64,000 bases of DNA from a virus (IMGVR_UViG_3300009503_000027:16835-80834); one strand, 5' to 3'. Positions 1 through 64,000 are shown, numbered from the stretch's first letter. A program made the numbers and translations. Notes: generated by a model from the sequence alone, not told the origin.

Positions 1-26
1 TTACCGCCGCAGTAGGAGGCGAGAAC

Positions 27-15234: not shown

Positions 15235-15517
15235 CTTGGCCTGCGTCTGGACAATGTACTATATTGTCGTCCTCGAACAGAAGAGTGACGGTATCTATTG
15301 CCGCCGATACAATCCCGTGAATGGCCAGCAATGTAAGTTCTCTGATAACAGCTACGAGAAGCGCGTTATACCGTACAGTTCGGAATTCGATGCCGTGCAG
15401 GATGGCTTTACCATAATTGTCTACCTGGCGAGCGAGCCGGGCTACTCGGGAGAGACCGCTACTCTTTATGTGTCCTACGACATGGGTGAGACCTTCGAGC
15501 GGAGGCCAAGGGAATAA
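15227..15517 (+). CDS. Small tail protein, unknown
   Basis: Unrecognised 96-residue beta-rich protein. TTG 15227 is chosen (AGGGAAGA upstream, overlapping the previous gene). ATG 15254 is an alternative. The C-terminal part (FTIIVYLASEPGYSGETATL, YVSYDMGETFERRP) looks like a BNR-type strand pattern (S-x-D-x-G-x-x-F). The tail-tip gene upstream ends with a similar beta pattern, so the two may have been one protein. It ends on the start of the next gene. Confidence 0.5.
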   Translation: MANLACVWTMYYIVVLEQKSDGIYCRRYNPVNGQQCKFSDNSYEKRVIPYSSEFDAVQDGFTIIVYLASEPGYSGETATLYVSYDMGETFERRPRE

Positions 15518-40473: not shown

Positions 40474-41550
40474 TTAGCGCCGAACATGCACACTATGTTT
40501 GTCTACGCCTAGCCAAATGCTGATAGCCCCCAGGTCTGCAGGGGGCAAGCCCATCTCCGCTGGATAGCCCCTGTGCTTGAGAAAGGATGGTAACAATACC
40601 CTGTGTTGGCCATAGGCTACTACGAGGCCCTGTTCGTTGGGGCCGAAGCGGATGTCGCGCCAAGCCATCTCTTGATGCAAGTGCCCCACCGTCACGATAT
40701 CTGCGTTTGTGGTTGCAGCTATCCGGTCGGCACGGGAGACTTTTGCGCCCCGCGTCTGGGAAGCTCCCGCCCCATGATGGTGGTAATGGGTGTACATCTG
40801 CTTGACCTTGCCATTGATGATTAGCTTATATGTGAGATGGCCCTCGTAGCCCCAGAAAGGCAGGCCGAGCCGGTTGGCAAGCTCCTCCGAAGGATCCAGG
40901 TTTGCTTGTAAGAGGCGTGTGATGCGGCGGTCGTGGTTTCCTGTGAAGATGGCGATACCCTGGCTGGTGATAGGCCGTAGCCGCATGGTTAGTAGGTCTA
41001 GGGCTTCATTGAGTTCGCAGAACTGTTCGCGTAGGAGGCCTGGGCTTCCTGTTGTGGCCAGGTCGAAGTTGTCCCCGCCCAGGAACCATCGTGCTGTTGG
41101 GGTAGCGGCTATCCATTCCACCAGTTCGACGAACCGCTTGTAGTCGCAGTGCTTGCTGCCCAGATGTAGGTCTGAGATGGGAACGAGGCAGACTTCCTTT
41201 GTCCCACGGGGCACTTTCCATTCATATTCCAGGACTCTTTCTTGGGCTTCTGATTGTTCGAGGTACTCCGCATCGAGGTCTTCCACCGTGCGTGCATCCG
41301 AGAAACGCTCGTTGCGCTGGAACATTATGGACTTCCGCCCTGTATGCTTCCCATGGCAGCCTAGCCCCAGCTTCCGGAAACAGTGCTGCATTGTGGAGGG
41401 CGAGAGGCCCACCCATTCGGCGGCAAGTTTAGCATTCCCATGGAAGCGCTGATGGAGAAGCAAGCCGCCTATCTCGTAGCCTCCTAGCATCTGCCATACT
41501 TGCCCCCCAACCCCGCGTAGTGCATCCCAATCTATCTTGTCGGCTTTCAT
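40474..41550 (-). CDS. Calcineurin-like metallophosphoesterase with N-terminal HTH
   Basis: A 358-residue protein. An N-terminal region (KLAAEWVGLSPSTMQHCFRK) looks like a helix-turn-helix. The phosphoesterase core has all metal motifs: PISDLHLGSKH (D-x-H), FLGGDNFD (GD), IFTGNHDRR (GNHD), YTHYHHHGAG and VTVGHLHQE (GH-x-H). Such phage enzymes relate to Mre11/SbcD-type nucleases or to lambda-type protein phosphatases. The DNA-binding N-terminus favours a nuclease. Its start overlaps the methylase stop by four bases. Confidence 0.8.
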   Translation of the reverse strand: MKADKIDWDALRGVGGQVWQMLGGYEIGGLLLHQRFHGNAKLAAEWVGLSPSTMQHCFRKLGLGCHGKHTGRKSIMFQRNERFSDARTVEDLDAEYLEQSEAQERVLEYEWKVPRGTKEVCLVPISDLHLGSKHCDYKRFVELVEWIAATPTARWFLGGDNFDLATTGSPGLLREQFCELNEALDLLTMRLRPITSQGIAIFTGNHDRRITRLLQANLDPSEELANRLGLPFWGYEGHLTYKLIINGKVKQMYTHYHHHGAGASQTRGAKVSRADRIAATTNADIVTVGHLHQEMAWRDIRFGPNEQGLVVAYGQHRVLLPSFLKHRGYPAEMGLPPADLGAISIWLGVDKHSVHVRR

Positions 41551-42497
41551 GGCTCTACCTCGGCGGCAAGATCTTCCTTATTATACCCCGCTTCGCTATC
41601 GGATACACTATCCCATAGGCTGAGCTGGCCAACTTTCTCCTGTGCTGTTTGTGGGTCAATCCATAGGGATTCTATTCGGGGCTGCATGGTTGATCTTGCC
41701 CCGTTGCCCCGGATACCGGTGGCCCTTGTACAAGCTGCTGCTAAGCACGTCCTATTGAAGTCAAGGCGTACCCACCCGGCCTCTTCCAGGGGAGCATAGA
41801 CCTCGTGCTTGTATCCCGACAAGGCAAACTTCCCCGGTAACCCTAGGATAGTGCGAACAAGCTCTGCATGGTCCTCCACCGTCATTTCGTGCATATATAC
41901 ATCGGGCGACCGTCGGACATCGGGGACGTATGGTGGGTCAAGATAACAGAACGAGTGCGGAGAACAGTATTGTTGCAAGACTTCAATGGCGGGACGCGAC
42001 TCTATGTGCGCTCCATGGAGGCGGGAGGCACATGCGGGCAATACCCTAATCGTGCTCAACAGACGTGCACAGGTGCCAGCCATGTGGCGGGAGGTAGTCT
42101 CAACTGCAAGCGACCAGCTGGCCCCCCAGTAGCCCGAAAAGGACTGCTTGGCAACTACCCACCAACGCCACGCCCTACGCACTGGGTCAGTTTCGTTGTT
42201 CCATTCGCGGCGGCACTCCTCATACAGTTCCCGGCTGTGTAAGGTGAAGTATGCTAGATGCATAAACTCATCCGGGTGATCGCGTAGGACACGAAAGAAT
42301 TCCACCAAGGGCTGGTGGATATCATTGATGACCTCGAAGCGGGCTGGTGCTTTAGCAAAAAACAGGGCGGCAGAACCACAGAATGGCTCAATGTATACAT
42401 CATGGGCTGGCATCAATGAAAGCAGTTGTCGCAGGAAGGGCGTTTTGCCGCCATACCAGAAGAATGGCGCTGGTATCCTTGGTCCATTACTGGTCAT
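41547..42497 (-). CDS. D12-class DNA adenine methyltransferase (copy 1)
   Basis: Dam-type N6-adenine methylase, 316 residues. The SAM motif is FFWYGGKTPFLRQLLSLMP near residue 13 and YIEPFCGSAALFFAK near 35. The catalytic motif is CYLDPPYVPD near 193. A helical recognition region lies between. It would methylate host or phage DNA and may protect against restriction or control packaging and regulation. Two paralogues follow at 42494 and 44799; this copy overlaps the second by four bases. Confidence 0.85.
   Translation of the reverse strand: MTSNGPRIPAPFFWYGGKTPFLRQLLSLMPAHDVYIEPFCGSAALFFAKAPARFEVINDIHQPLVEFFRVLRDHPDEFMHLAYFTLHSRELYEECRREWNNETDPVRRAWRWWVVAKQSFSGYWGASWSLAVETTSRHMAGTCARLLSTIRVLPACASRLHGAHIESRPAIEVLQQYCSPHSFCYLDPPYVPDVRRSPDVYMHEMTVEDHAELVRTILGLPGKFALSGYKHEVYAPLEEAGWVRLDFNRTCLAAACTRATGIRGNGARSTMQPRIESLWIDPQTAQEKVGQLSLWDSVSDSEAGYNKEDLAAEVEP
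41579..41588 (-). promoter_or_regulatory. Promoter -10 element GGGTATAATA inside methylase 3' end
   Basis: Lies within the last codons of the first Dam gene (coding for Gly-Tyr-Asn), 29 bases before the phosphoesterase start. It could drive that gene separately. Identical core to the intergenic copies. Confidence 0.4.
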
Positions 42498-43378
42498 GCC
42501 TCTTCTCCTATTAATTGCGTCTGTGCCCGGACCAGCTTGGCAGTTTCGGGGTCAAGCCAGACGGACTCAACCCGCGCTTGTTTTTCCAAGACAGTGCCGT
42601 CGCCCAGGAGCCCCGTTCGGCGCGACCGTGCGGCGGCATAGCATCCCGTGGGGAAGTCTATCCGTACCCATCCTGCCTCTTCCAATGGTTTGTATACTTC
42701 GTGGTTATATCCTGATAGCATGAAGCGCCCAGGCAAGGATAAGAGGACCTCAACTAATTCTTTATGCTCTTCTACAGACATTTCGTGGTCATATACGGTA
42801 CTACTGCGGCGTGTGTCAGGAATATATGGCGGGTCGCAGTAGCAGAACGAGTTTGGTGTGCAGTATTGCTGCATGACTTTGATAGCGGGGCCGCACTCTA
42901 TCTGGGTACGTTTGAGACGCTCTACACAATCGGGCAGGTGTTCAACTGCTGAAAGCAGAGCACTACAGGACATCGCCATGCCACGGCGTGATAATGTGAT
43001 GTTAGATCTCCATCCTGCTCCCCAGTTGCCGGAGAAGGACTGGCGCGCCACTACCCACCAGCGCCATGCTTTGCGGACCGGGTCTGTTTCTTCGCGCCAT
43101 TTGGCCCTGCATTCTTCGAATAACTCGCGGCTATGGATTGTCAGCCTGGCGAGTTCTATGAACTCTTGGGGATAATCGCGGAGAACCCGGAAGAACTCCA
43201 TCACGGCATGGTCAATGTCGTTAATGGTTTCAACCAGGGCCGGCTCCTTGGCAAAGAAGAGTGCTCCACTGCCAAAGTACGGTTCAACATACTCCCTGTG
43301 TGGGGGCACTAGGCGTAGTAGCCTTCCTATCATGTTGCCTTTACCTCCGTAGCGGCAAATGGGCGAGTGCAAGTGCAT
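42494..43378 (-). CDS. D12-class DNA adenine methyltransferase (copy 2)
   Basis: Dam-type enzyme of 294 residues. CRYGGKGNMIGRLLRLVP near residue 8, YVEPYFGSGALFFAK near 31 and CYCDPPYIPDTRR near 190 give the full SAM and DPPY motifs. Closely related to copies 1 and 3, sharing the long block V-x-x-FFRVLRD and TDPVRKAWRWWVVARQSFSG. The tail segment VESVWLDPETAKL is also common to all three. Different target sites are likely but not predictable. Confidence 0.85.
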   Translation of the reverse strand: MHLHSPICRYGGKGNMIGRLLRLVPPHREYVEPYFGSGALFFAKEPALVETINDIDHAVMEFFRVLRDYPQEFIELARLTIHSRELFEECRAKWREETDPVRKAWRWWVVARQSFSGNWGAGWRSNITLSRRGMAMSCSALLSAVEHLPDCVERLKRTQIECGPAIKVMQQYCTPNSFCYCDPPYIPDTRRSSTVYDHEMSVEEHKELVEVLLSLPGRFMLSGYNHEVYKPLEEAGWVRIDFPTGCYAAARSRRTGLLGDGTVLEKQARVESVWLDPETAKLVRAQTQLIGEEA

Positions 43379-44257: not shown

Positions 44258-44314
44258 TACTGTTGTGCTTTTCCCCTGTGCCTCTTGGTCATTAGGGCGC
44301 CCCTCATGCTGTTA

Positions 44315-44391
44315 GGTGGAGGCGGCGGGAGTTGAACCCGCGTCCGGTGGCAAGCTCAATCCGCTTGCACATCGTCGAGCCCATCGCCCCC
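44315..44391 (-). ncRNA. tmRNA-like tRNA-domain RNA without mRNA part
   Basis: A 77-base structure on the minus strand. The acceptor stem is a perfect 7-bp GGGGGCG with CGCCTCC, including a G3-U70 wobble, the alanine identity signal. After it comes GGGCTCGACGATG, like the D-loop of tmRNA (GGATTCGACGG in E. coli). A helix GTGCAAGC / GCTTGCCAC with one bulge follows, then a GGATTGA loop. Then GACGCGGGTTCAACTCCCGC, the T arm almost identical to E. coli tmRNA, and ACC before a T. The mRNA-like domain is missing. It overlaps the last codons of the 44356 gene. It may be a real small RNA or the tmRNA-derived core of an attachment site. Confidence 0.6.
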
Positions 44392-44798: not shown

Positions 44799-45716
44799 CT
44801 ACAGTTCTGAGTGGCCGAACAACTTGCCACTTTGTATTCCTAGCTCTTTGGCTGTTCTGGGGTCGAGCCACACCGACTCGATGCGTGGCTGCATAGCCGT
44901 AGCGGCGCCCTTGCCTAGTATGCCGGTGCCGACTGTCCGGCCAGCCGCATGGCAGGCTGTCCGGAAGTCCACGCGTGCCCAGCCCGCCTCTTCTAGGCGG
45001 GCATACAGCGGATTGGCATACCCGGATAGTAAGACCTTCCCCTTGACCTCCCCTGACAGGAGGAAGTCAATAAGACGTACGTGGTCCTCCTCCGACATCT
45101 CATATGTGTACACTTTGGGTTGAATTCGCGTACTCGGCAGATATGGCGGGTCTAGATAGTGCAAGCAATCTGGCGTATCTGTCCGCATAACAGCCCTCTG
45201 CCAATCCGTGCAAGAAATCTGAACACCTTGTAAGCGCGCAACTACTTGCGGAAGGCTCTCTACGCAAGACAAGAGGCTGGCCACTCCTTTGGGCATTGCG
45301 CCAGCAGTTTGTGTGCGCGTATGTCCCCACGCTGCTCCCCAATTGGCCGCGAAGCTCATCCTTGCGACTACCCACCAGCGCCACGCCTTGCGGACAGGGT
45401 CTGTTTCTTCGCGCCATCTGGCCCGGCACTCGCGCCAGAGTGCTTCACTATACTCTGTGAGGGCGGCAAGTTGAATGAATTCCTCTCCGTGGTCGCGAAG
45501 CACGCGGAAAAACGTGGTCACGGCCTCATCTATGTCATTGATGGTTTCGTGGGGCGCCGGGGCCTTGGCGAAGAACAAGGAGCCGCCGCCAAAGAACGGT
45601 TCGCAGTATTGCTGATGAGAAGGCACCAGCCGTAGAAGTCTTCCCACCATGTTGCCCTTACCTCCACGGCGCTGGATGGGCGAGCGGAGCCGACGTTTCC
45701 TTTTGTCGGGTGCCAT
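44799..45716 (-). CDS. D12-class DNA adenine methyltransferase (copy 3)
   Basis: Dam-type enzyme, 305 residues. QRRGGKGNMVGRLLRLVP near residue 15 (the usual aromatic before GGK is Arg here), YCEPFFGGGSLFFAK near 38 and HYLDPPYLPSTR near 193. It shares long blocks with copies 1 and 2, such as DPVRKAWRWWVVAR. It is separated from them by a regulator, an unknown gene and the tmRNA-like RNA, suggesting insertion after gene duplication. Confidence 0.85.
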   Translation of the reverse strand: MAPDKRKRRLRSPIQRRGGKGNMVGRLLRLVPSHQQYCEPFFGGGSLFFAKAPAPHETINDIDEAVTTFFRVLRDHGEEFIQLAALTEYSEALWRECRARWREETDPVRKAWRWWVVARMSFAANWGAAWGHTRTQTAGAMPKGVASLLSCVESLPQVVARLQGVQISCTDWQRAVMRTDTPDCLHYLDPPYLPSTRIQPKVYTYEMSEEDHVRLIDFLLSGEVKGKVLLSGYANPLYARLEEAGWARVDFRTACHAAGRTVGTGILGKGAATAMQPRIESVWLDPRTAKELGIQSGKLFGHSEL

Positions 45717-48843: not shown

Positions 48844-49427
48844 AGAATGCTCCTTAGCTGCAAGGCTATTATACCCGCTCTGCCAATATTCAAACATCGG
48901 ATATGTTTGATGGGATAGTTCTGCCCCCAGAGTTGCATGCAGCGCCTGGCAACAACATCAAAGGGTTCCAGGCGGCTAGCCTCCCTACAGTAGTGAGGAC
49001 GGTAGTACTCATCGGCGGTGGCAATATCTTCTGGTGTCCGGCCAAATGCGATGGCCAACTTGAACACGGACTTGCACCGGGGCCAGTACTTGCGCCAGGC
49101 GGCAATCTCTGCCTCAGTGATGGGATGGTGGCCCCGCCAGGGCAGGCGGGCCCGTGATGATACAAACGGGCACTTCGGCGGGGCGCTTCCATCGAGAATG
49201 CACGTTAAGACACGCAGCCGATATGCTGGCGGCACGAGAATATACTCCGCCTCTGCTAGGCCTAGCAGCCAGGCCTTGTAAAGTCCTTCATGGCTGATAT
49301 GGGGCGGCAGGCTAGCAGGATCGAACCCCAAGATACGCTTCAGGAACCACCGGGGCCAGCGGTGCCGCCGGGCCCAATCAGCTAGAAGGATTTGTATTGG
49401 TGTCGTTGTTGCCAAGAATGTTGACAT
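48822..49427 (-). CDS. Hypothetical protein downstream of integrase
   Basis: Unrecognised 201-residue protein from ATG 49427, overlapping the integrase end by 50 bases. Arg/Trp-rich and helical (LADWARRHRWPRWFLKRILG; AAWRKYWPRCKSVFKLAIAF), with a segment SAPPKCPFVSSRARLPWRG. No metal cluster or catalytic motif stands out. The basic composition suggests DNA contact. The last part overlaps the helicase start and contains its promoter. Confidence 0.45.
   Translation of the reverse strand: MSTFLATTTPIQILLADWARRHRWPRWFLKRILGFDPASLPPHISHEGLYKAWLLGLAEAEYILVPPAYRLRVLTCILDGSAPPKCPFVSSRARLPWRGHHPITEAEIAAWRKYWPRCKSVFKLAIAFGRTPEDIATADEYYRPHYCREASRLEPFDVVARRCMQLWGQNYPIKHIRCLNIGRAGIIALQLRSILWKQLWD
48867..48876 (-). 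promoter_or_regulatory. Promoter -10 element GGGTATAATA before helicase
   Basis: Leftward element, 24 bases before the helicase ATG and inside the 3' end of the upstream gene. TGTTTG stands 17 bases upstream as a possible -35 box. Same core as at 35214, 40461 and 41579. Confidence 0.6.
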
Positions 49428-50364
49428 TGATCCGGAAGGCTGGGTTATTCTTTGCCGCCTCGACAATGCGGGCATAAACCCGCGTTGTATCAAGACTCTT
49501 ATGCCCTAGCATGTCCTGGACTTCTTCCAGGCGCGCTCCCCCGCTAAGAGCCAGGGTGGCCACCGTATGGCGCAAGCCGTGGGGCGTGATATCGGTTAGC
49601 CCGGCACGATCTAGATACCGCCGGAGCAGGTAATTGATAGACCGTCGCGCCATACGTCCTCCTGGCGGGCGGCCGGGCGGCAAGGCAATAAACAATGCCT
49701 CTTCCCGGTCAGTCCTGAACGAGAGATACCGTTGGATTGTTGCCATCACATCAGGACGCAAGAAGATCACACGGGGCCCCCGTTTACCCTGGAGGATGGC
49801 TATCGGGGAATCTCCACGATACTGAATATCTTGTTTGTTCAGGCGATGCAGTTCAATCTGGCGCACGCCATGGATGGCGGCTAGTGCCAAGATGGCCCGG
49901 TCACGCCAAGCCGTGATGTCGTTGCCCTTCACGGCGGCAAGGAGTGCTTGTAACCCCTGCTCCGTCGTGTAGCGTATCTTTTCCTCGCGGCCACGTATAG
50001 TGACACGTACGCCGGCTGCCGGGTTATCCCGCCGGATGCCGCGCCACACTGCAGCTGTGTACAGCCGCCGGACAGCCGACAGGTAACCAGCCACTGTCGA
50101 GTCTGCCATGCCGGCTTCCCGCATGGCCTGCCGGTACCGCCGGATGTCATCGGGCGTGGCCGCTGCGGCATCAATACCGTTCTGGGCACACCACGTCAAG
50201 AAATATGCAGCTGCCCGCCTATACATGCGCTTTGTATCGTCGGATGGTGCGCCTTCTGCCACGTCATACTGGAAGAACTCTTCCAGGGTTGCTAGCCAGT
50301 CGAAGGGCATGGGCGTCGGGGCAAGTTCTGCCTCTTCTTTCACAGGCACAATATCCACGCTCAT
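49378..50364 (-). CDS. int: Tyrosine-type site-specific integrase
   Basis: Phage integrase of 328 residues. ATG 50364 with AGGAGGCCC is preferred to upstream ATGs. The N-terminal SAM-like core-binding domain is at residues about 40-120 (DTKRMYRRAAAYFLTWCAQN). The catalytic domain follows, with the first Arg in AIHGVRQIELHRL, the H-x-x-R in TPHGLRHTVATLAL, and LGHKSLDTTRVYARI with the nucleophilic Tyr. It would insert and excise the phage genome. No attachment site is obvious next to it. The tmRNA-like sequence at 44315 is a candidate. Confidence 0.85.
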   Translation of the reverse strand: MSVDIVPVKEEAELAPTPMPFDWLATLEEFFQYDVAEGAPSDDTKRMYRRAAAYFLTWCAQNGIDAAAATPDDIRRYRQAMREAGMADSTVAGYLSAVRRLYTAAVWRGIRRDNPAAGVRVTIRGREEKIRYTTEQGLQALLAAVKGNDITAWRDRAILALAAIHGVRQIELHRLNKQDIQYRGDSPIAILQGKRGPRVIFLRPDVMATIQRYLSFRTDREEALFIALPPGRPPGGRMARRSINYLLRRYLDRAGLTDITPHGLRHTVATLALSGGARLEEVQDMLGHKSLDTTRVYARIVEAAKNNPAFRINVNILGNNDTNTNPSS

Positions 50365-50431
50365 CTTTGGGCCTCCTGCGTTTGCGATATTATTATCCTT
50401 CTCCCCCATGGGAAGTGCGGCTCCTTCTTGG

Positions 50432-51868
50432 TCAGCTTGCAAGTTCTGCATAGCGGTTCACCCACATTGCTGCTTCTTCGATATGCTCCGTGAGGATTTC
50501 CTCGCTACCCGCCAGGTCAGCGATTGTGCGGGCAACAAATACACATTGGTGCACGGATCTGCCCGTCCACTGGTCGCCTATCTCGACCAGCCTGTCCTCA
50601 GCGGCAGATGATAACCTCACTCTCCCCGTCATAATGTCCTCGGGCGTGAGGAACGCATTGCGCTTGCCCCGCTCTCTCTGTGCCCTAATAGCCCGTATCA
50701 CGCGCTGACGCACAGTTGCCGAGGGCTCCGCTTCCGATGATTTGAGTAGCTCCCGCGTATCGGTTGGGCCGACATAGGCTGTAATGTGTATACGGTCCAT
50801 GATGGGGCCGCTCAAGCGGCGGCTGTAGCGCCGCTTCTCGGCAGGTGTACAGACACACCCACCGGGGCGCGGGCCGCAGGGGCACATATTCGCGGTGGCA
50901 AGTAGCTGGAACCGCGCCGGGAAGGTTTTCGACCAGTTAGCCCTGTTTATCACCGCAATGCCTTCCTGCATGGCCGTCCTTAGACTTTCCTTGGCGGAGG
51001 CAGGCCAGTACGGGAACTCATCAGCTACCAAGAGGCCCCGGTGGGCAAGCGATACCAGTCCCGGATAGGGCACTTCATATCCTCCGCCGGCGATACTTTG
51101 TCTTGTCGGCGAGGGGGAAGCGAACACCACGGGCCGTTCTGTCAGTCCTTGGCCGGGCCGCAGGGCCCCACTCAGTACCCAGATTTGTGTCACTTCTTTC
51201 TTTTCGTTCTCTGTGAGGGGCGGTGTGATGGTAGGGAAAGCCTTGGCAAGCAGGGTCTTACCTGTGCCGGGCGGGCCGATAAACATCAGGTGATGTCCCC
51301 CGGCGGCGGCAATCTCCAAAGCACGCTTCGCCTCTCTCTGCCCCGCAATGTATCTGAGATCCACCAGCTCAAATGGTAAGCGTTGCGGGGCCTGTGCTGG
51401 TTCCACCGGTGTTGCTCTCCTGGGATCGTCCAGTATCTGCTCAAGTTCATGCCGCGTCCGGGCGGCATAGGCACGGATGCCTAAAGTTGCGGCCAATGCC
51501 GCTACTTCAGGCGTGCTGACGAGGGCTACCCCTGCGGGCCAGTCTTTCAGGTAGACCATCGGGTCCGGCGGGCCATATAAATTACCTGCGGGATCGGCTT
51601 TGGCCAATGCTAAGATTTCAGGCGGGGGCACTCGTCTCATCATGACATCATATGGTTGGAACTTGTGCTCACAATAGTACCTTAGCCCAAGCTCATAGTA
51701 ATCATTAGTGACCCTCCTGCCATCAAGGTCGAGGATATGTGGCCAATATACAATGCCGCCGATGCTATAGACGCAAGAAGCAGACAATGGCCCCCTGGGC
51801 GACGGCAATCCGCTAATAGCAACTTCCCAAAGCTGTTCTCTCATTGCTTCCTCTACAGTCACTTGCAT
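50432..51868 (-). CDS. comM: ComM/YifB-like Mg-chelatase-type AAA+ ATPase
   Basis: A 478-residue AAA+ protein of the ComM/YifB family, whose bacterial members aid branch migration during natural transformation. Features: GQREAKRALEIAAAGGHHLM, Walker A GPPGTGKTLLAKAF, LAHRGLLVADEFP (Walker B), LRTAMQEGIAVINRANWSKTF, ANMCPCGPRPGGCVC, and SGPIMDRIHI. The N-terminal LonB-like region is only partly conserved (LPSPRGPLSASC). Start ATG with AAAGGAGATG. A phage-encoded ComM is unusual and fits the rich recombination set here. Confidence 0.8.
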   Translation of the reverse strand: MQVTVEEAMREQLWEVAISGLPSPRGPLSASCVYSIGGIVYWPHILDLDGRRVTNDYYELGLRYYCEHKFQPYDVMMRRVPPPEILALAKADPAGNLYGPPDPMVYLKDWPAGVALVSTPEVAALAATLGIRAYAARTRHELEQILDDPRRATPVEPAQAPQRLPFELVDLRYIAGQREAKRALEIAAAGGHHLMFIGPPGTGKTLLAKAFPTITPPLTENEKKEVTQIWVLSGALRPGQGLTERPVVFASPSPTRQSIAGGGYEVPYPGLVSLAHRGLLVADEFPYWPASAKESLRTAMQEGIAVINRANWSKTFPARFQLLATANMCPCGPRPGGCVCTPAEKRRYSRRLSGPIMDRIHITAYVGPTDTRELLKSSEAEPSATVRQRVIRAIRAQRERGKRNAFLTPEDIMTGRVRLSSAAEDRLVEIGDQWTGRSVHQCVFVARTIADLAGSEEILTEHIEEAAMWVNRYAELAS

Positions 51869-54181: not shown

Positions 54182-55189
54182 ATGGTGCCGTGGCGATACT
54201 ATGCGCTCACCCCAGGCAGGCTTATCCTGCTCGTCAGCGATCCTCACGATCTCCAGGGCGACGATGAAGAAGTCATCCAGGGTAGCATGGACGCCCTGCA
54301 GATCTCGCATAGCGGCCCGATCGTGGCCGCACGGGTCGCCAACGCACTGCTCGTTGGCGACCCGTTTGCTTTGCGGGGGGGGCTGGAACTGCCCCCAGGC
54401 GGCACCGCCTGGGCGGCAGTTGAGCCCGGGCAGTGGATACCACTCTGCTGGCAGTGCCCGCAGTACATGGGTGCCTGTGACGGCACTGCCAGCGACAGAG
54501 ATGTGATTGACTGCTGGCGAGCGGCCGGACTAACCCGGCCGCATTCCTCGGACCCGGAGCTACGGGTCCGGAACCTGCCGGGCAGGCGCGCCCGGTGGGA
54601 GGATCTGGCGGTGTGGCAGGGCACAGTCGTGATACAGCAGGGCGACAAAGGGCAGGCTGTACGTGATGCGGTCCTGCCCCTCAAGGCGATATGCGAGCTC
54701 GTCGGCGATGACCGACGGCTCGCTTCCATTTTTCTAGGGGACTACTGCCCCCTCGATGAGCTCCATGTGCTCCGGGGTGGGCAGTGGGTTCCGTACTGGG
54801 TCCCGCGCGTACCGCATGAGTGGCGGGACCCGACCGGGCGGGACTGTCCCACCGTGAGGGCCTGGCAGTACATCGTTAGTCATTGGGCCCGAGCGGTAGA
54901 ACCAAACTTCGGCCCCACGACAAGGGCCGAAGTGTTTGCGGTAGCGGAGATGGTAGCTGCAGGACAGTCCCACTGGCGGGGATGTGGGCGCGGTCTGTGC
55001 TGGCTGAGTGCCCTGCTGGACGCGGGCTCAGTCCGCGGCAGGGCACTCAGCCAGTTTATTTTATCGCTCTGGGTGGACGAGTTCGCTCAGGAGGTAGCTG
55101 CCGCCCTGGGCGTCCCGGTTGAAGACGTGGTCGAGATTCACCGGGGCGTCTGGGGCGAGCTGATGAGTATACTTAAGGAGGGCGAATGA
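54182..55189 (+). CDS. Hypothetical first gene of the MoxR-vWA operon
   Basis: A 335-residue protein with GAGGAGG at ideal distance. The first 120 residues are a beta-rich region with GSMDALQISHSGPIVAARVA and a possible metal pair in CWQCPQYMGAC. The middle is Arg-rich. The C-terminal third is helical and ends VPVEDVVEIHRGVWGELMSI. Not recognised. It is coupled to the ATPase by an ATGA overlap, so it may be a substrate or regulator of the MoxR unit. Confidence 0.5.
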   Translation: MVPWRYYALTPGRLILLVSDPHDLQGDDEEVIQGSMDALQISHSGPIVAARVANALLVGDPFALRGGLELPPGGTAWAAVEPGQWIPLCWQCPQYMGACDGTASDRDVIDCWRAAGLTRPHSSDPELRVRNLPGRRARWEDLAVWQGTVVIQQGDKGQAVRDAVLPLKAICELVGDDRRLASIFLGDYCPLDELHVLRGGQWVPYWVPRVPHEWRDPTGRDCPTVRAWQYIVSHWARAVEPNFGPTTRAEVFAVAEMVAAGQSHWRGCGRGLCWLSALLDAGSVRGRALSQFILSLWVDEFAQEVAAALGVPVEDVVEIHRGVWGELMSILKEGE

Positions 55190-56268
55190 TGGTCACGCTG
55201 ACAACCGACCAGTACAGGAGTCTGCTAACGCATTTTTTAGGAGCTGAGTCTGTCGACGATCAGCTCCTTGGCCTGCTGGTTATTGGGCCAGCAGGGGTGG
55301 GCAAGACCAGTATCTCCAGGGATGTGGCGCGCGAGTTGGGATGGGATGTGAGAGAGGTCTACTTGGGCAATATGGCGGATCCCGGCGACGTCCGGGGTCT
55401 GCCAGTGGCGGGGGAGGGGAGGACGGACTGGTTGGTGTCGGCGGAGTTTGTGCCGCCGGCGCGGCCTACTGTCCTCCTCCTGGATGAGATAACTCGTGCT
55501 CCGGTCTATCTCCACTCTATCATTGTTACGCTGATCACCTCGTGCTCAGTGGGGCCGGGCCATAAACTGGACCCGGCCCTGGTCAAGGTGATCGCGACGG
55601 GGAACCCGAGTACGGAAGAGTACTCGGGCTGTTACGAGTTGGACCTGGCCGTCAGGTCCAGGTTCTACCAAGTTGGCCTGGTGGCGGACTGGACCGCGTG
55701 GTTCAAGTGGGTCCAGTCCAGGACCCAGGAGCCATTCCGGCTCCACGTGGCCGGCGCCGTGGCCACGGCGCCGGAGCTGCAGAATGCCGCCAGTCCGCGG
55801 GACTGGTGGCACGTCGTCCGGCTGGCGACGCCAGATCGCGAGCTGCTCCAGTGGATTGTCGAATCGAAGGTCCCGGGCGCGGCGGCTCCACTGCAGGAGC
55901 TGCTGCAATCAGGCGACCAGTTGCCGCCTGTCGAGCAGCTGGCGGGCGATCCTGAGGCCGCAGTCAGGATAATAGAGGGGTTGCCCGTCCTGCTCCAGGG
56001 CTGGGCAGTAAAGCGGGCGGCTACTGTGATGAGTAGCCTGCCCGTCGAAAAAGCGGCTGCTCTGGTCGCTGCCCTGTTGACCTCGGGCATTAGGCCCGAG
56101 CTCAAGGCGCAGGCCCTGCGGCTTGCGCCGCAGGCCGCACTGGCGGCCGCCGCAAAGCAGAACAAGGGGCTGGTCCAGGAGGTCCAGAAGGCTCACCTGG
56201 ACCAGATGGCTGAGGTTCGAGAGTTCATCGCGGAGAGGGTGAACGAACGTGACCAGAGCCGAGGCTGA
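55186..56268 (+). CDS. MoxR-type AAA+ ATPase
   Basis: A 360-residue AAA+ protein. Walker A G34-P-A-G-V-G-K-T-S42; the segment GDVRGLPVAGEG; Walker B VLLLDEITRAP with D100-E101; sensor 1 in KVIATGNPSTEEY; and an arginine stretch at LAVRSRFYQV. These are hallmarks of MoxR/CbbQ/CobS-like ATPases, which act as chaperones paired with vWA proteins, here the next gene, overlapping by 20 bases. The C-terminal helical domain (residues 230-345) is Ala/Leu-rich. Substrate unknown. Confidence 0.85.
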   Translation: MMVTLTTDQYRSLLTHFLGAESVDDQLLGLLVIGPAGVGKTSISRDVARELGWDVREVYLGNMADPGDVRGLPVAGEGRTDWLVSAEFVPPARPTVLLLDEITRAPVYLHSIIVTLITSCSVGPGHKLDPALVKVIATGNPSTEEYSGCYELDLAVRSRFYQVGLVADWTAWFKWVQSRTQEPFRLHVAGAVATAPELQNAASPRDWWHVVRLATPDRELLQWIVESKVPGAAAPLQELLQSGDQLPPVEQLAGDPEAAVRIIEGLPVLLQGWAVKRAATVMSSLPVEKAAALVAALLTSGIRPELKAQALRLAPQAALAAAAKQNKGLVQEVQKAHLDQMAEVREFIAERVNERDQSRG

Positions 56269-57724
56269 GAAAGTACACTCCGCGTTGATCCAGACGATTT
56301 TGCGGCGGCTGGACTACCACACCGCACTGGTAGCCCAGCTGCTCACCGGGGTAGAGGTCGCGGCCTTCAGTGAGGGGGACGAATGCCCCACTGTGGCCGT
56401 TGAACTCTGCCCCAGCGGCCGGGTGAGGATGCTGTACGGCGATGCCGTGTGGGACTTACTGACGCCGTCGCGATGGGAGCAGGAGATGCAGTACCTCGCT
56501 CAGCACGAGGTACTGCATATCCTGCTCGGGCACACTCTCCGCATAGCAGAGATGTGTGCTAAGTATGGCGCCCAGGTAGCGCGGGTGGCGGCGGACTGCG
56601 TGGTGGATGACTTCCTGCCGGCGCCACAGTCGATGGCGCCGAAATTGGCGCTTACTCGCGCCAAGGAGGCGCTCAGTCGGCAGGGACTGCTCCCGCCGCC
56701 GGGGGCGAGCTGGGATCAGTACTGCGCGGCTTTAGCCGCGCTGGGCGATCTCAGCGACTCCGGCAGCGGTATGCAGTCCCCCGGTGGCGGTGCGCAGTCC
56801 CCCGGCGGATCATCTCAGTCTTCCTCTCAGTCTTCCTCTCAGTCTCCCTCTCAGTCTTCCTCGCAGTCTCCCTCGCCGCAGCCGGAGGCAGGGTCTGCAG
56901 AGCAGGCGAGTTCTGCAGGACAGCGGCCGACTGACGGCGGCGCTGCTGCCGATGGGGCTGGCTCTGCAGGGCAGAGTCAGAATGGGGGAGGTAGTGCCAC
57001 CGAAGGGCAAAATGGGAAGAGCACCGAACTGGACGGCTACGTCCAGAAAGTGCCGGGGGAGGGTCTCCCGGACACCCTGATCTCGGAGGCGGCTGAGAAG
57101 TTTGCCGCCCAGGTCCGGGAGCTAGACCGACAACTACGGTCCCGGGGCGTTAACCCCGGGGGGATGCAGGAAGTGATTGACAACTTCCTGCGTCCCCGGC
57201 CAGTGCCGCTACGCCTGTTGCAGCAGATGCTGTCAACGCGGCGGCAGCGGCCCTCGTACAGTAAGCCCAACAAGCGGCGCGGCCCTGGCTACCCGGGTCT
57301 GCGCCGCGAGAGGTGTCAAGGGCAACTGGTTGTTGCCTACGACACCTCCGCTAGCATGGGTAAAGAGGACCTGGGTCTGGCCTTGGGCCAGATCCAAGAA
57401 ATACTGAAGGAAGTTGAGGGTGACCTCGACTTTCTTCAGTTCGACGCGGACATCCAGGGGGTGAAGACTGTCCGCGTCGGGCAGTTGGCTGGACTACGCG
57501 ACTGGCTGCGCGTAGTCCAGGGCCGGGGTGGGACTGATTACCGGCCGGTGATCGAGTGGTGGCAGTCGCACCGGCCGGGATATAGGCTCGTAGTCATCAC
57601 CGATGGCTACGCGCCGATCCCGCCTCTCTTCGCGCGGCTGGTCTGGCTGATCACGGACCAGGAGCGCGTGGAAGAGTTCAGGGCGGCGGGGCACCGGGCG
57701 TACTATCTTGTCCCGGAGAGGTGA
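56249..57724 (+). CDS. HExxH metallopeptidase-like and von Willebrand A protein
   Basis: A 491-residue partner of the MoxR ATPase. The N-terminal domain has Q-H86-E-V-L-H90-I-L-L-G-H95, a zincin-like HExxH motif as in DUF2201-type proteins. A low-complexity Ser/Gln/Pro/Gly linker follows (about residues 175-260, with several SQSSSQS units). The C-terminal vWA domain has the MIDAS D365-T-S-A-S, the later GGTDY and VVITDGYAP. Such vWA proteins bind targets that the ATPase remodels. In a phage this pairing is uncommon, and it leads a family of related genes downstream. Confidence 0.85.
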   Translation: MTRAEAEKVHSALIQTILRRLDYHTALVAQLLTGVEVAAFSEGDECPTVAVELCPSGRVRMLYGDAVWDLLTPSRWEQEMQYLAQHEVLHILLGHTLRIAEMCAKYGAQVARVAADCVVDDFLPAPQSMAPKLALTRAKEALSRQGLLPPPGASWDQYCAALAALGDLSDSGSGMQSPGGGAQSPGGSSQSSSQSSSQSPSQSSSQSPSPQPEAGSAEQASSAGQRPTDGGAAADGAGSAGQSQNGGGSATEGQNGKSTELDGYVQKVPGEGLPDTLISEAAEKFAAQVRELDRQLRSRGVNPGGMQEVIDNFLRPRPVPLRLLQQMLSTRRQRPSYSKPNKRRGPGYPGLRRERCQGQLVVAYDTSASMGKEDLGLALGQIQEILKEVEGDLDFLQFDADIQGVKTVRVGQLAGLRDWLRVVQGRGGTDYRPVIEWWQSHRPGYRLVVITDGYAPIPPLFARLVWLITDQERVEEFRAAGHRAYYLVPER

Positions 57725-57730
57725 GGGACA

Positions 57731-58000
57731 GTGAAGGTGTGGTTTACTCCACATGCCCTTCGGCGGGCGGCGCAACGCGGCGCCGACGTTGAACATATAC
57801 GGCAGCGCCTGGAGAACTACCAAGGCACTGCCGACAGAGTCCCGGTAGGCCTGTGGGAGTGCGTGGTGAAGCGTGCCCCAGGCACTGGGGACCTGATAGT
57901 AGTGACGATACTTTACAATTCAACGCTTTTTGCGCCGTGTAGGCGCAAACCGAGGAAGAGCAGGGATCTGCGGGTGTATGCCCGCGCCCTGCGTAAGTAA
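57731..58000 (+). CDS. Small DUF4258-like protein
   Basis: An 89-residue protein from a GTG directly after the vWA gene. It begins MKVWFTPHALRRAAQRGADV, the F-T-x-HA-x-x-R-x-x-x-RG pattern of DUF4258-type proteins, and continues with a strand region LIVVTILYNSTLF and a basic tail. Members of that group can resemble RelE-like folds. A toxin role is not demonstrated. It may be an accessory of the operon. Confidence 0.5.
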   Translation: MKVWFTPHALRRAAQRGADVEHIRQRLENYQGTADRVPVGLWECVVKRAPGTGDLIVVTILYNSTLFAPCRRKPRKSRDLRVYARALRK

Positions 58001-58013
58001 AGGAGGCGAAGGT

Positions 58014-58601
58014 GTGTATAAGCTCGCGTTTCGCGGGGAGCAGGAAGGTTTGGAACAGTTGCACCGACTGCTGCCCCAGTTCAGCGCTAAGCTGGACGGG
58101 GGGGTCCTGTATCTGGACGCGGTCGTTGTGGATGGAGTTGAGCGCGGCCTGCAGATGGCCCAGGCCAGTGACGTTGCGGCCCTGGGCCAGGCAGTGCGCG
58201 ACCTACTGCAGGCCGGGGCGGAACTGGAGTTCGCTCCAGTCGTTCCCTGGCCGGCCAGGGTAGGGAATATTCTCTTCCCCTGGCCACTACCCGGCCAGGG
58301 CACAGTGCCAGCCAACGGCTACGTTCTCCTCAGCTCGCTGGCGTCTCGAGACTGGCAGCGGCTGGTCCTGCCGCCAGCAGTCCCCCGGCCGCCTAAGCCC
58401 CTGGTGATTGTCCAGGGGCCGAACTGGTCGAGCGTGAGCTCCCATGACATTACTGTCATCGGGGGCGACTGTCTCGCGTTCAGCGGGGCAGGCGGTACTA
58501 GGCCACTATCAGTGCTATCGCTATCGTGGGAGGATGCCTGCGGTATTCCCCCTGTTTTCGAGTACGTGCAGTATCTGTACCTGATAGTGGGAGGATGGTA
58601 G
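58014..58601 (+). CDS. Hypothetical protein in the MoxR operon
   Basis: A 195-residue protein from GTG 58014 with AAAGGAGG. A first half with alpha/beta pattern (LEQLHRLLPQFSAKLDGGVL, LDAVVVDGVERGLQMAQ) leads to a Pro/Trp-rich middle (PWPARVGNILFPWPLPGQG) and a beta-rich end. Not recognised and not visibly related to the five-member family downstream. Confidence 0.45.
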   Translation: MYKLAFRGEQEGLEQLHRLLPQFSAKLDGGVLYLDAVVVDGVERGLQMAQASDVAALGQAVRDLLQAGAELEFAPVVPWPARVGNILFPWPLPGQGTVPANGYVLLSSLASRDWQRLVLPPAVPRPPKPLVIVQGPNWSSVSSHDITVIGGDCLAFSGAGGTRPLSVLSLSWEDACGIPPVFEYVQYLYLIVGGW

Positions 58602-58602
58602 C

Positions 58603-59520
58603 GTGATGGTAGTGTACAGGGACTGCCTCCGGGGAGCGCTGTTCAAGTCGGTTGCTGAGTATATCAGCAACTGCATTGTGTGGGTGGACTACTGTTGCGT
58701 GCATTGGCCCGACAGTGCCACCCACGACGGGACCGTCTACGGACCGGCGACAGACTCCCCCTACTGCCCCGGGGTTGGGCAGTACTGGGGGACCGGAGGC
58801 AGGCTATGGCCCCACGTCCCGGTGCAGCGGCCATGCCCTAACTGTGGCATGGTGCACTGGTGGGTGGCCTATCACGTCAATGGTGAGTATGAGTCGTACG
58901 TGATGTGGCCGCTCCCTGATCCGCTGAACTGGTGCCCTGCGGAGGGGCCTGTCCCTGTGAGCGATACTATCGTCGCAGAGGAGTCTGATCTAGCGCGGTT
59001 TTACAACCAGGTGCTTCAGTACATTGAGCACCTGGATGAATTTTACAGGTTGCCGGTGCCGCTTCGCGAGATGATCGCGCGGCACTGGTATGATGATTCC
59101 GGGCCGGTTGACTTTCGGCCCGCGCGGCCGCTCGGGGATCACTCCTACCCTCCGCTGAGAGATGCTTACTACCGCTGGCAGGCGCGGGCCGTCATCGACA
59201 CTGCACGCCTGACCTACAAACCGGGCGTGAGTGTCAACTACCCGATCGCTATTGCGTATCGGGGCCGCACTTATTTCTATTTGGCCCGTCCGCCGAAGCG
59301 CACTGCCAAAACGCTGGCGGTGCGGCCCCTCTACTGTATGCCGCCGGAACTGACGCCGTGGCGGGGTAGCCCTACGCCGCTGTGGCCCGATGGCCGGTGG
59401 CTGACGTGGCCATACCGGCTGCACGAACAGCGCGGCCCGACATGGCGGCTAAGCCTTGAGTACGTGCCCGATCTGCGGGAAGCTGTAGACCGGGCATTCG
59501 AGGAGGGGGCGGCACTATGA
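58603..59520 (+). CDS. Member 1 (divergent) of a five-gene paralogous family
   Basis: A 305-residue protein from GTG 58603 (GGGAGGAT; ATG 58606 alternative). The core PCPNCGMVHWWVAYHVNGEY equals the C-x-C-G-x-x-x-Y-W-x-x-Y block of genes 60580, 61290 and 61997. FYNQVLQYIEHLDEFYRL matches their helix, and PGVSVNYPIAIAYRGRTYFY matches their PVMV...PLLIAYD...YCIIPW block. An N-terminal extension with extra Cys and a longer, Pro-rich C-terminus are unique. Function unknown. Confidence 0.55.
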   Translation: MMVVYRDCLRGALFKSVAEYISNCIVWVDYCCVHWPDSATHDGTVYGPATDSPYCPGVGQYWGTGGRLWPHVPVQRPCPNCGMVHWWVAYHVNGEYESYVMWPLPDPLNWCPAEGPVPVSDTIVAEESDLARFYNQVLQYIEHLDEFYRLPVPLREMIARHWYDDSGPVDFRPARPLGDHSYPPLRDAYYRWQARAVIDTARLTYKPGVSVNYPIAIAYRGRTYFYLARPPKRTAKTLAVRPLYCMPPELTPWRGSPTPLWPDGRWLTWPYRLHEQRGPTWRLSLEYVPDLREAVDRAFEEGAAL

Positions 59521-59816
59521 TAAGGATTACTATTCACGGAGCCCTACCAGACCGGATCCGCGACAGTATCTGGGACTTCGCGGAGGCCCTGGGGCAGCGC
59601 GGTACGCCTGAGGAAGTACTGGCGGCCGCGATCCTGGAGGAGCTGGGGGGGCAGGGTAAGCCGCGGATCAGGTTGGTCGGCGATGCCAATGCGTGGCGCC
59701 CTTCGTGCGTGATCGAGCTCCCGGCGCGGGTCAGTCCCGCTCACGCCCGATTTATCGCCAGTTGCGTGCTGAGCTGTCTCGGGTTCCGCGGCCAAGTGGA
59801 GGCGGAGGAGGTGTGA
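59517..59816 (+). CDS. Small hypothetical protein
   Basis: A 99-residue alpha/beta protein coupled by ATGA to the gene before. Strand, helix, helix, strand order (MIRITIHGALPDRIRDSIW, EEVLAAAILEELG, RIRLVGD, ARFIASCVLSCLG). Not recognised. It separates member 1 from member 2 of the paralogous family. Confidence 0.5.
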   Translation: MIRITIHGALPDRIRDSIWDFAEALGQRGTPEEVLAAAILEELGGQGKPRIRLVGDANAWRPSCVIELPARVSPAHARFIASCVLSCLGFRGQVEAEEV

Positions 59817-59818
59817 AA

Positions 59819-60583
59819 ATGAAGCACATACCACTGAAGTTTGAAGTATGGCATGACGCCGTGGTCCGGGCATTCCGTGGCCACGGCGATATAGTCGTCG
59901 TGCCTGGGCCGTGCGGCGAGATGCACTACTGGTTCCGTCTGCGCGGAACCAATGCACTCTCGCATCTCCTGGAGGGGGTGGAGTGCACTTGCCCTGCGAC
60001 CTTTGAAGTCGAGGGCGCAGAAGCTGCCCCCATTGAGGCATGGTGGGGGCAGTTCATGACATACCTTCAGGCATGGCGTCAGGAGGCGTATCCGCAGGAT
60101 GACCTGCGGTACGTGAAGGCCCTAGAGCGGTACTGGTGGCCGCTCGCTCAGCATGCCCTGACGTCATGCATGGCGCCACGGAGCTGGCCATGCTACCCTG
60201 TGGCCAGCCTCCCGCTGGTCCTCTGGTTCAGTAAGGAGATCATTCGGGTCCTGTCCATGCAGGGCTTCCCCTGTATGGTGTACGGGACTGACCCTGTTGT
60301 CCTGGCGTACACTGGCAAGGAGGGCAACCACGCGGCTCAGCAGCCGGATCTGCACTACTGTATTGTCCCCTGGGTGATATATCCCGGGCTGCTGGGGACG
60401 ATCGAGCTGAGCCGGGTTGGGGAGGCGCCGTATGTTGTGGACGACTGGATCCCCGGCTCGACTGGCATTACGCCGCCTGCACTCACGGCGGAGAATCAGC
60501 GGCTTGCCGGGTTACTAACGCGGCAGATCATGTCCGCACAAGTGTTCTCAAACGGTACACTGCTGATAGGGCCACCGTCATGA
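59819..60583 (+). CDS. Member 2 of the paralogous family
   Basis: A 254-residue protein from ATG 59819 (GGAGGAGG). It retains GPCGEMHYWFRLRGTNALSH and ECTCPATF at the N-terminal metal-like region. The block LPLVLWFSKEIIRVLSMQGF leads to PCMVYGTDPVVLAYTG and LHYCIVPWVIY. The conserved end TAENQRLAGLLTRQIM corresponds to T-x-ANRRLA-x-x-LAR-x-IL in members 3-5. Overlaps member 3 by four bases. Confidence 0.6.
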   Translation: MKHIPLKFEVWHDAVVRAFRGHGDIVVVPGPCGEMHYWFRLRGTNALSHLLEGVECTCPATFEVEGAEAAPIEAWWGQFMTYLQAWRQEAYPQDDLRYVKALERYWWPLAQHALTSCMAPRSWPCYPVASLPLVLWFSKEIIRVLSMQGFPCMVYGTDPVVLAYTGKEGNHAAQQPDLHYCIVPWVIYPGLLGTIELSRVGEAPYVVDDWIPGSTGITPPALTAENQRLAGLLTRQIMSAQVFSNGTLLIGPPS

Positions 60584-61272
60584 AGCCAGTGGATGACATA
60601 CTGACAAACATTCGTACATGGATGTGGCAGATTCACAGGGTCCACACCCGGACGGCTAAGGTACTGCGGACCAGGTGCCAGTGTGGCACCGCTTACTACT
60701 GGGTGGTATACCCACCGGCCCCAACGCAGTACATGCTGCCCAGCCGTAGGTGCCCACACAGTGGGCCGCACTTTGTGGAGGGCGCGCCCACCATGAAGGA
60801 GTTATATGAGCAGTTGTGGCTATGGATCCACGAGCTGGACGAACCCCTGGCTAACGTGCGAGATCTTAGCATGGCCCTGTCCTTCCTCAGTGAATGGGCA
60901 GGCGCGCTGATAGGCTATCCGATGCTCCAGTCGAAGAACATTCGCCATTCTTTTCAGTACACCCGGGCAGCACTGCCCGTCATGTTGTGGGCCTCACAGT
61001 GGGCCATCAAACTACTGGAGGGCCAGCCCGTGATGGTGTTCTGCGTGTCCCCGTTACTGATCGCCTATGACGTGCGGAAGATCAATGACTGGCGGTACTG
61101 CATTATCCCCTGGCCGCTAGCCGGAGGGCAGGTCACTCACGGACATATGCGGACATGTACGATTGATGATGCGAATATACCAAGGAGGATCACAGCCGCC
61201 AACAGGCGGCTGGCTACTGTCTTGGCTCGTCAGATCCTCCGAACGGAGGTCCGGGACATAATAGGCTGCTAA
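60580..61272 (+). CDS. Member 3 of the paralogous family
   Basis: A 230-residue protein. Order of conserved blocks: WMWQIHRVHTRTAKVLRTRC with QCGTAYYWVVYPP; RRCPHSGPHF; MKELYEQLWLWIHELDEPL; the helix RAALPVMLWASQWAIKLLEG; QPVMVFCVSPLLIAYDVRKI; WRYCIIPWPL; and ITAANRRLATVLARQIL. No known catalytic signature. It is closest to member 4, sharing KELYEQLWLWI and IAYDVRKI. Confidence 0.6.
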   Translation: MKPVDDILTNIRTWMWQIHRVHTRTAKVLRTRCQCGTAYYWVVYPPAPTQYMLPSRRCPHSGPHFVEGAPTMKELYEQLWLWIHELDEPLANVRDLSMALSFLSEWAGALIGYPMLQSKNIRHSFQYTRAALPVMLWASQWAIKLLEGQPVMVFCVSPLLIAYDVRKINDWRYCIIPWPLAGGQVTHGHMRTCTIDDANIPRRITAANRRLATVLARQILRTEVRDIIGC

Positions 61273-61289
61273 CGAGGTAGACAGTCATA

Positions 61290-62000
61290 ATGGTAGCGAA
61301 TAATGTGTTTCACGACGTTATATTTCCGTGGGTATGGCAGATCCATGCCCACCTGCGTGGAGACCGCACAACACTCCGGGTCAAGTGCCCGTGCGGATAC
61401 GTCCACTACTGGCGGGCGTATCCGGATGGCTCGCCGCAGTATGAGCTGGCCAGTCAGGTAAGTTGCCCCCATGATTATCAGTTCCTGGACGGCGGCGAGC
61501 CGGCCACTGTCAAGGAACTATATGAACAGCTGTGGCTATGGATCTATGACCTCGATCAGCACTGGAATCAAGAAGTTGACGATCTCAGCCAGGCTCTGTC
61601 GTTACTTAATGACTGGGCGTATAAGTTGCTAGGCATGGAGATCCTGCAAACAGCGACTCCTCGTTTCTCCTGCTACTACGCCCGGGCAACGTTGCCACTC
61701 ATGTTGTGGATGTCTCAGCGGGCAATCAAGCAACTGGACGGCCAGCCTGTGATGGTGCTCGGCACCGATCCCATACTCATCGCCTATGACGTGCGGAAGA
61801 TCACGGGCTGGCAGTACTGCATCATTCCCTGGCCGATGTCGCGGAAGCAGATCAAGCGTGGACTTACATGGCGGGTTGTACTCGATGAGGCCGACTTGCC
61901 GCGAAAGGTCACACCTGCTAACAGGCGGCTAGCGGCTGTTCTAGCCCGCACTATCCTGGGCATGCAGCCCAGTGAACTGAATGAGGCCATCACACAATGA
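61290..62000 (+). CDS. Member 4 of the paralogous family
   Basis: A 236-residue protein: FPWVWQIHAHLRGD; CPCGYVHYWRAYPDGSPQYE; VKELYEQLWLWIYDLDQHW; RATLPLMLWMSQRAIKQLDG; QPVMVLGTDPILIAYDVRKI; WQYCIIPWPM; VTPANRRLAAVLARTILG. Very close to member 3 in plan and words, consistent with a recent tandem duplication. The ribosome site is weak (ACGAGGTAG). Confidence 0.6.
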   Translation: MVANNVFHDVIFPWVWQIHAHLRGDRTTLRVKCPCGYVHYWRAYPDGSPQYELASQVSCPHDYQFLDGGEPATVKELYEQLWLWIYDLDQHWNQEVDDLSQALSLLNDWAYKLLGMEILQTATPRFSCYYARATLPLMLWMSQRAIKQLDGQPVMVLGTDPILIAYDVRKITGWQYCIIPWPMSRKQIKRGLTWRVVLDEADLPRKVTPANRRLAAVLARTILGMQPSELNEAITQ

Positions 62001-62716
62001 CCAGTAAGCAAGTGATTGACGCCATAGTAAAATGGACCCGTGCCGTGGCGCATTATACCGCCGGCAAGGGCAGGATAGTACAAAGGACATGCCACCGCGG
62101 GCATGTCCATTACTATAGCACTTATCCCCAAGCTTTCGTCCGGTTGCCCGATGAATATGACTGCACCGCAGGTCACTATCCTGGTGAACACTATGACCTT
62201 GACGCCATGCCCATTCGGGAAGGATACGAGCAGTTGACGTATTGGGTGCAGCGCCTCGACAGGCACTTGCGTCCAGTTCGCGGTCTCGAGCAGAAGTTGA
62301 AGCAACTATCAACGTGGCTGGCGCAAACTACCTACTGGTACATCTTGCACTCCACTCGCGCCCAGCGGCAATTCTTCTATTCTGATGTTCATTTGCCCAT
62401 GATGCTATGGACGGCCCGCAAAGTGGTCAAATTACTCTCTGACTTTCCCGTGGGAATAGTAACGGACCACCCGGTCATGATCGCATATGACATTCAACAG
62501 CTGGATCTACACTTGGATGTTAAGTACTGCCTCGTTCCCTGGCCAATTGGTGACTATCCTGGCACACAGGTCACCATCAGCTCGTTTTCGACAGTTTCAG
62601 TTGACCTGTGTTGGCCTAATGAGTACACGGCCGCGAACAGGCGGCTAGCTAGTATTCTTGCCCGCCGGATCCTCCAGACTGAGATAGCCTATGATCCGCC
62701 GGGCGGCAGTACGTAA
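61997..62716 (+). CDS. Member 5 of the paralogous family
   Basis: A 239-residue protein overlapping member 4 by four bases. CHRGHVHYYSTYPQAFVRLP corresponds to the Cys/Tyr block with one Cys replaced by His. It then has REGYEQLTYWVQRLDRHLRP, VHLPMMLWTARKVVKLLSD, FPVGIVTDHPVMIAYDIQQL, VKYCLVPWPIGDY and YTAANRRLASILARRILQTE. It ends the operon before a strong terminator. Confidence 0.6.
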   Translation: MTSKQVIDAIVKWTRAVAHYTAGKGRIVQRTCHRGHVHYYSTYPQAFVRLPDEYDCTAGHYPGEHYDLDAMPIREGYEQLTYWVQRLDRHLRPVRGLEQKLKQLSTWLAQTTYWYILHSTRAQRQFFYSDVHLPMMLWTARKVVKLLSDFPVGIVTDHPVMIAYDIQQLDLHLDVKYCLVPWPIGDYPGTQVTISSFSTVSVDLCWPNEYTAANRRLASILARRILQTEIAYDPPGGST

Positions 62717-62736: not shown

Positions 62737-62766
62737 AAAGAGGCGCCCGGTCAAGGGCGCCTCTTT
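62737..62766. terminator. Bidirectional rho-independent terminator
   Basis: Perfect 12-bp stem (AAAGAGGCGCCC / GGGCGCCTCTTT) with loop GGTCAA, flanked by an A7 run on the left and TTT on the right. It closes the rightward operon and would also stop leftward transcripts from the three small genes beyond. Confidence 0.85.
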
Positions 62767-63839: not shown

Positions 63840-63848
63840 TGCGGCCGG

Positions 63849-64000
63849 CCCCATGGGCGGCCGCATGGCGGCCCCATGGGCGGCCCCATGGCGGCCCCAT
63901 GGGCGGCCCCATGGCGGCCCCATGGGCGGCCCCATGGCGGCCCCATGGGCGGCCGCATGGCGGCCCCATGGGCGGCCGCATGGCGGCCCCATGGGCGGCC
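63849..64000. repeat. 23-bp GC-rich tandem repeat reaching the window end
   Basis: About 6.6 units of CCCCATGGGCGG followed by CCCCATGGCGG, with a few C-to-G changes at one position. Each unit holds two CATGG cores. The repeat is cut off by the window edge. All frames are open through it, so the ORFs across it are not credible genes. Confidence 0.9.

Follow-up and report, generated by a model that had tools for sequence, protein, structure and literature searches.

Characterised pairs of a MoxR ATPase and a vWA protein act on dedicated partner complexes, as in the Midasin, RavA-ViaA, MoxR and CoxD-CoxE systems and in an archaeal virus tail-assembly system (PMC7159879). Pairs of MoxR with a metallopeptidase-vWA protein are found in hundreds of phages, for which the only role that we found in the literature is a proposal: virion assembly with peptidolytic processing in jumbo phages, for which the two-tailed Acidianus virus served as the analogue (PMC7824862). 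In the MoxR-vWA ternary conflict systems, which involve VMAP or iSTAND components, the two genes share one operon with one or more further genes (PMC7159879).

The locus described here belongs to an uncultured, probably temperate phage. It lies in a window of 64,000 bases, which spans positions 16835-80834 of a virus record 80,834 bases long. An operon of ~8.5 kb (54182-62716) carries at its 3' end five paralogues of an orphan family, hereafter m1 to m5, with a terminator after m5 (Table 1). Upstream of them, an AAA_5 ATPase with homologues in N4-like phages and a protein with DUF2201_N and DUF2201 domains correspond to the N4 gp24/gp25-type pair. The latter protein keeps HEVLHILLGH (HExxH) and DTSAS (the DxSxS vWA motif), aligned with those of the phiFa, PEV2 and At2 proteins. 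ATGA overlaps are found at 55186, 59517, 60580 and 61997, and the other neighbouring genes overlap or almost touch. The 335-aa product of the first gene has no match in Pfam, PHROGs or phages. This MoxR/vWA neighbourhood, which the initial annotation did not mention, is the most informative context for m1-m5. In phrog_1314 and in many phage records, proteins of this HExxH-vWA DUF2201 type bear the widespread label "HNH endonuclease"; because their domain content points to a metallopeptidase-vWA protein, this label looks like a propagated error.

Table 1. Features of the operon and of the rest of the phage genome. Positions are those of the window unless marked as record positions.
Feature	Position	Strand	Remarks
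335-aa orphan	54182..55189	+	First operon gene; stop overlaps MoxR start (ATGA)
MoxR-type AAA+ ATPase	55186..56268	+	AAA_5 8e-9, AAA_3 4e-8 (Pfam); phrog_1297 2e-21
HExxH metallopeptidase-like domain fused to vWA	56249..57724	+	DUF2201 1e-15, DUF2201_N 1e-8 (Pfam); N4 gp25-like
Small protein	57731..58000	+	Weak DUF4258-like Pfam match under cut-off
195-aa orphan	58014..58601	+	Start revised to GTG 58014 from the preceding ribosome-binding-like AAAGGAGGCGAAGGT
m1	58603..59520	+	305 aa; divergent, longer family member
99-aa gene	59517..59816	+	m1/m2 interval; no Pfam match
m2	59819..60583	+	254 aa; family member, first Cys of block lost
m3	60580..61272	+	230 aa; family member closest to m4
m4	61290..62000	+	236 aa; family member
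m5	61997..62716	+	239 aa; family member, final gene of operon
Bidirectional intrinsic terminator	62737..62766	.	12-bp stem-loop, A and T runs either side; predicted on - strand
Tyrosine integrase	49378..50451
ComM/YifB-like Mg-chelatase ATPase	50432..51868	-	Directly adjoins the integrase; Pfam 1e-59
Dam-like adenine methylases	41547..42497, 42494..43378, 44799..45716	-	Three similar genes
78-nt RNA	44314..44391	-	tmRNA match (RF00023, 59 bits, model 1-374), tRNA-like domain only
GxGDxxxxxPA motif	2709..3623, 19343..21154, 23489..24442		By eye, resembles glycosyltransferase family 9; among structural genes
Caspase-fold protein	record 2931..3704	-	Outside the window; Peptidase_C14 E 5.5e-6, GHG and DACHAAG motifs
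23-bp repeat array	record 1..260; window 63846..64000		Both record ends

The phage encodes a terminase, a portal, a capsid protein of a family known from Streptomyces phages and others, a DnaG-DnaB fusion, a beta clamp and a RecA-like protein. Its structural genes occupy record positions 4.6-40 kb, and the replication and integration block, with its tyrosine integrase, sits between them and the m1-m5 operon. A search for the host based on the ComM-like gene gave no result. Both record ends fall in the same GC-rich 23-bp repeat array (GGCCCCATGG-type; CGGCCCCATGGGCGGCCCCATGG), from which we infer that, leaving this array aside, the genome is probably complete or circular; it probably closes through the array. 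The sole close record found, IMGVR_UViG_3300027863_000216, is 99.9% identical and covers the structural region only.

Several other features of the genome were observed. The Dam-like methylase genes form another paralogue set, sharing by eye the motif YGGKxxFxxxLLxLxPxHxxYxEPFxGxAALFFAKxP. The 78-nt RNA has about 20 nt in place of the 314-nt tag and pseudoknot part of tmRNA; read by hand, its acceptor stem keeps G3:U70 and it ends in CCACCU, not CCACCA. It may be a tmRNA mimic that has no tag, or the remnant of an integration site; a full tmRNA with tag called by ARAGORN at 44018-44408 is doubtful.

All five ORFs are present where they were initially annotated and show coding GC periodicity (GC3 0.61-0.74, well over GC2), most of them with a ribosome-binding-like sequence upstream. 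In all-against-all BLASTP, m2-m5 align across their full length (28-53% identity, E 1e-13 to 4e-72) as clear paralogues. The closest pair is m3/m4, as proposed initially (53%, E 4e-72); m3/m5 share 34% identity (E 4e-40), m4/m5 30% (E 3e-30), and m2 shares 28-32% with m3, m4 and m5 (E 1e-13 to 5e-21). Leave-one-out HMMs recover m2 (1.8e-25), m3 (2e-65), m4 (1e-63) and m5 (1e-45). BLASTP against the other members did not pick up m1 (best E 0.08). The m2-m5 HMM, run on 73 window ORFs, matches it (E 3e-5) and scores it above 2000 of 2000 m1 shuffles, and hhalign aligns it over 139 columns with a probability of 94% (E 1e-7, score 56.4), against a top score of 30.8 in controls made of 60 shuffles and other larger ORFs. 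On this profile evidence m1 is a remote but genuine relative, and pairwise or profile comparison makes m1-m5 a single homologous family, with homology beyond chance. The count of five members with a divergent, longer m1 is therefore correct, but their description as tandem applies only in part, m1 and m2 being split by the 99-aa gene. The 80.8-kb record contains no sixth copy; the 335-aa and 195-aa orphans of the operon were considered as extra members and rejected on comparison, the latter being unrelated.

The initial annotation had listed a series of motif blocks common to all five proteins. These blocks are shared in part, but several are only partial and not all occur in every member. Invariant positions in m2-m5 include a single G and a single C in the N-terminal block, LP and LW of LPxxLW, P...P..AY, YC..PW and T..N.RLA..L.R.I. 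The core blocks are retained across m2-m5 and to some extent in m1. Variability is greatest in the N-terminal part. m1 carries CPNCG (C-x-x-C) and lacks both LPLMLW and the TxANRRLA end. The Cys pair is incomplete in m2 and m5, which read GPCG and CHRG respectively.

Searches of Pfam, PHROGs, NCBIfam and PADLOC gave no family match for m1-m5 (curated cut-off or E < 1e-3). No match was found by tblastn of m4 and m1 against 50,697 phage records or of m3 against 72,556 plasmid records. Scans of IMG/VR and of 84,980 GTDB genomes with alignment patterns detected no relatives; these scans are non-exhaustive and require short exact peptide patterns, so that distant relatives could be missed. Within IMG/VR, a close-relative scan with m4 found none, nor did a scan with a TAANRRLA DNA pattern that does detect m3-m5 in the window. 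The family HMM found no relative in 28 phage records reached by terminase, nor among the ORFs of all fetched loci. The PDB yielded no accepted match for m1-m5; a profile match to the phosphoethanolamine transferase EptA (E 0.007, 110 of 335 residues) was judged to be due to chance. Within the collections searched, where no described family matched, the family is thus novel, as initially claimed. Two AlphaFold models built with 4-5 sequences predict an N-terminal helix, a beta-hairpin bearing the Cys block, and then helices (pLDDT about 80-89), followed by a second half of low confidence that holds the PVMV/IAYD/YCIIPW strands (mean pLDDT 59 and 66). Foldseek on both models (viral library: first model only) gave a best E of 0.08; because the C-terminal halves of both models are of low confidence, the absence of a match is uninformative and is no proof of a new fold.

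The repeated duplication that had been proposed is upheld, and the origin of the members would most simply be stepwise tandem duplication. For m3/m4, dS is 1.38 and dN 0.43, giving a dN/dS of 0.31 (bootstrap 95% CI 0.19-0.46), with pN below pS in every 45-codon window; dS is saturated in all other pairs. Over m3 residues 121-205, pS falls to 0.37-0.5, compared with 0.6-0.7 in the remainder; this dip would be in keeping with gene conversion of part of the gene or with a local constraint. Because of this ratio, of the absence of any window with pN > pS and of the conserved core blocks, the copies appear old and constrained: as far as codon comparison can tell, which for dN/dS means m3/m4, m1-m5 are old duplicates under purifying selection.

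The same two neighbour proteins are found in N4-like phages (Schitoviridae; gp24 AAA_5 and gp25) and in the MoxR-vWA pairs of jumbo phages, but none of the N4-like loci fetched has an m1-m5 homologue. Pseudomonas phage PEV2 has the pair without a paralogue array, and the genes around its pair carry an early-transcript annotation. A closer parallel is Thermus phage phiFa (MH673672.2, phiFa_34 to phiFa_22), in which orphan paralogues of ~250-360 aa form an array after the MoxR and vWA genes (phiFa_27, 26, 25 and 23 at 13278-17296, unannotated as such). Unlike in our operon, extra genes lie between the phiFa MoxR and vWA genes; the possibility that this array and m1-m5 are homologous was rejected (hhalign prob 0.1). 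The phiFa pair region adjoins replication and recombination genes. phiFa_28 and phiFa_29 are also related to each other, and the phiFa vWA protein is matched by 556 records. As in the ternary conflict systems, MoxR and vWA genes are adjacent here and share an operon with further genes; the vWA domain is, however, fused to HExxH and not to an effector, and Pfam and PADLOC, as general profile sets, gave no match to a VMAP or iSTAND component in the operon. In a survey of viral loci, limited to fetched flanks and including some pairs that are very large ORFs at locus edges, a paralogue pair was found in 13 of 80 vWA loci (1 per 100 kb) vs 3 of 79 terminase loci (1 per 238 kb), a comparison confounded by accessory versus structural regions. 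This enrichment is weak and confounded, and does not establish a general rule that MoxR-vWA loci carry paralogue arrays.

We tentatively propose, from the operon context, that m1-m5 may serve the co-encoded pair as its dedicated third component, in the role of clients or adaptors. The vWA cofactor would bind the m proteins, and the ATPase would remodel, or the peptidase process, either these proteins or a target that they carry. Each copy would keep the shared core and, through its variable N-terminal region and its C-terminal linker, be specialised for a different partner, with an action more likely during infection or lysogeny than in the virion. Several observations are consistent with this proposal: the compact operon, in which ATGA overlaps mark four of the gene junctions and a strong terminator comes immediately after m5, the metal-site motifs kept by the HExxH and vWA domains, the purifying selection on m3/m4, the phiFa parallel, the early annotation in PEV2 and the dedicated partners of characterised pairs. 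Against it count the survey result, the unrelatedness of the phiFa array and the absence of an array in PEV2. Because the enrichment among the 80 vWA loci is so slight and confounded, the link between m1-m5 and the pair is one that we infer.

Nearly as likely as this role as clients or adaptors is that m1-m5 are independent accessory proteins, active in host takeover, anti-defence or lysogenic conversion, each copy against a different host factor, and merely share the transcript. The phage has an integrase, the operon lies next to the integrase side of the genome and at a distance from the structural genes, a position in which accessory genes are often found, and the family is lineage-specific, like many accessory genes; on the other hand, PADLOC, NCBIfam and Pfam offer no match, and slow purifying evolution is atypical of fast arms-race genes. 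It is rather doubtful that m1-m5 are minor virion or tail-assembly proteins serving as clients of a MoxR-vWA virion-assembly chaperone. The role proposed for the jumbo-phage pairs would suggest it, but the replication and integration block separates the operon from the structural genes, and both the early annotation around the PEV2 pair and the replication and recombination genes beside the phiFa pair make a takeover role fit better than assembly.

Features of the proteins themselves suggest two further readings. The initial annotation took repeated duplication as a sign of selection for diversity, as for effectors, adhesins or decoys. The N-terminal part does vary most, but the dN/dS of m3/m4 stays, even at its upper limit, below the value above 1 expected of a diversifying array; together with the conservation of the blocks, it does not support selection for diversity, and an adhesin is unlikely because the array sits in a MoxR/vWA operon far from the structural genes, and not close to tail genes; diversifying decoys or adhesins are thus very improbable. 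We also consider it unlikely that m1-m5 bind nucleic acids through a zinc ribbon or act in restriction alleviation as Lar-like proteins. A C-x-C-G ... C-P-H set is kept in m3 and m4 and a C-x-x-C knuckle in m1, and m2 alone weakly matches Lar (NCBIfam TIGR03655, E 0.085); the resemblance to this family lies in a short C-P-x-C-G type block. However, the m2 score of 13.2 bits is far under the family cut-off of 39.6 bits, the m proteins are four times longer than Lar/Ral proteins with two thirds of their length outside the Cys block, and a zinc ribbon would need four metal ligands in all members, whereas C-x-C plus C-P-H occurs only in m3 and m4, and m2 and m5 have lost part of the set.

m1-m5 are a real orphan paralogue family, ordinary as a lineage-specific expansion and interesting mainly through its MoxR-vWA context. 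A broader scheme, which we regard as a long shot, is that some phages combine a MoxR-vWA-metalloprotease core with an array of lineage-specific, mutually diverged adaptors, by which this one core could be directed to several targets in the host or the phage, an arrangement evolved independently here and in phiFa; if true, this would be the phage counterpart of chaperones or proteases whose adaptors can be exchanged. The operon offers five concrete candidate partners of the pair. If m1-m5 do not bind it, they would be an ordinary lineage-specific orphan expansion; if they do, they would reveal the targets of such pairs.
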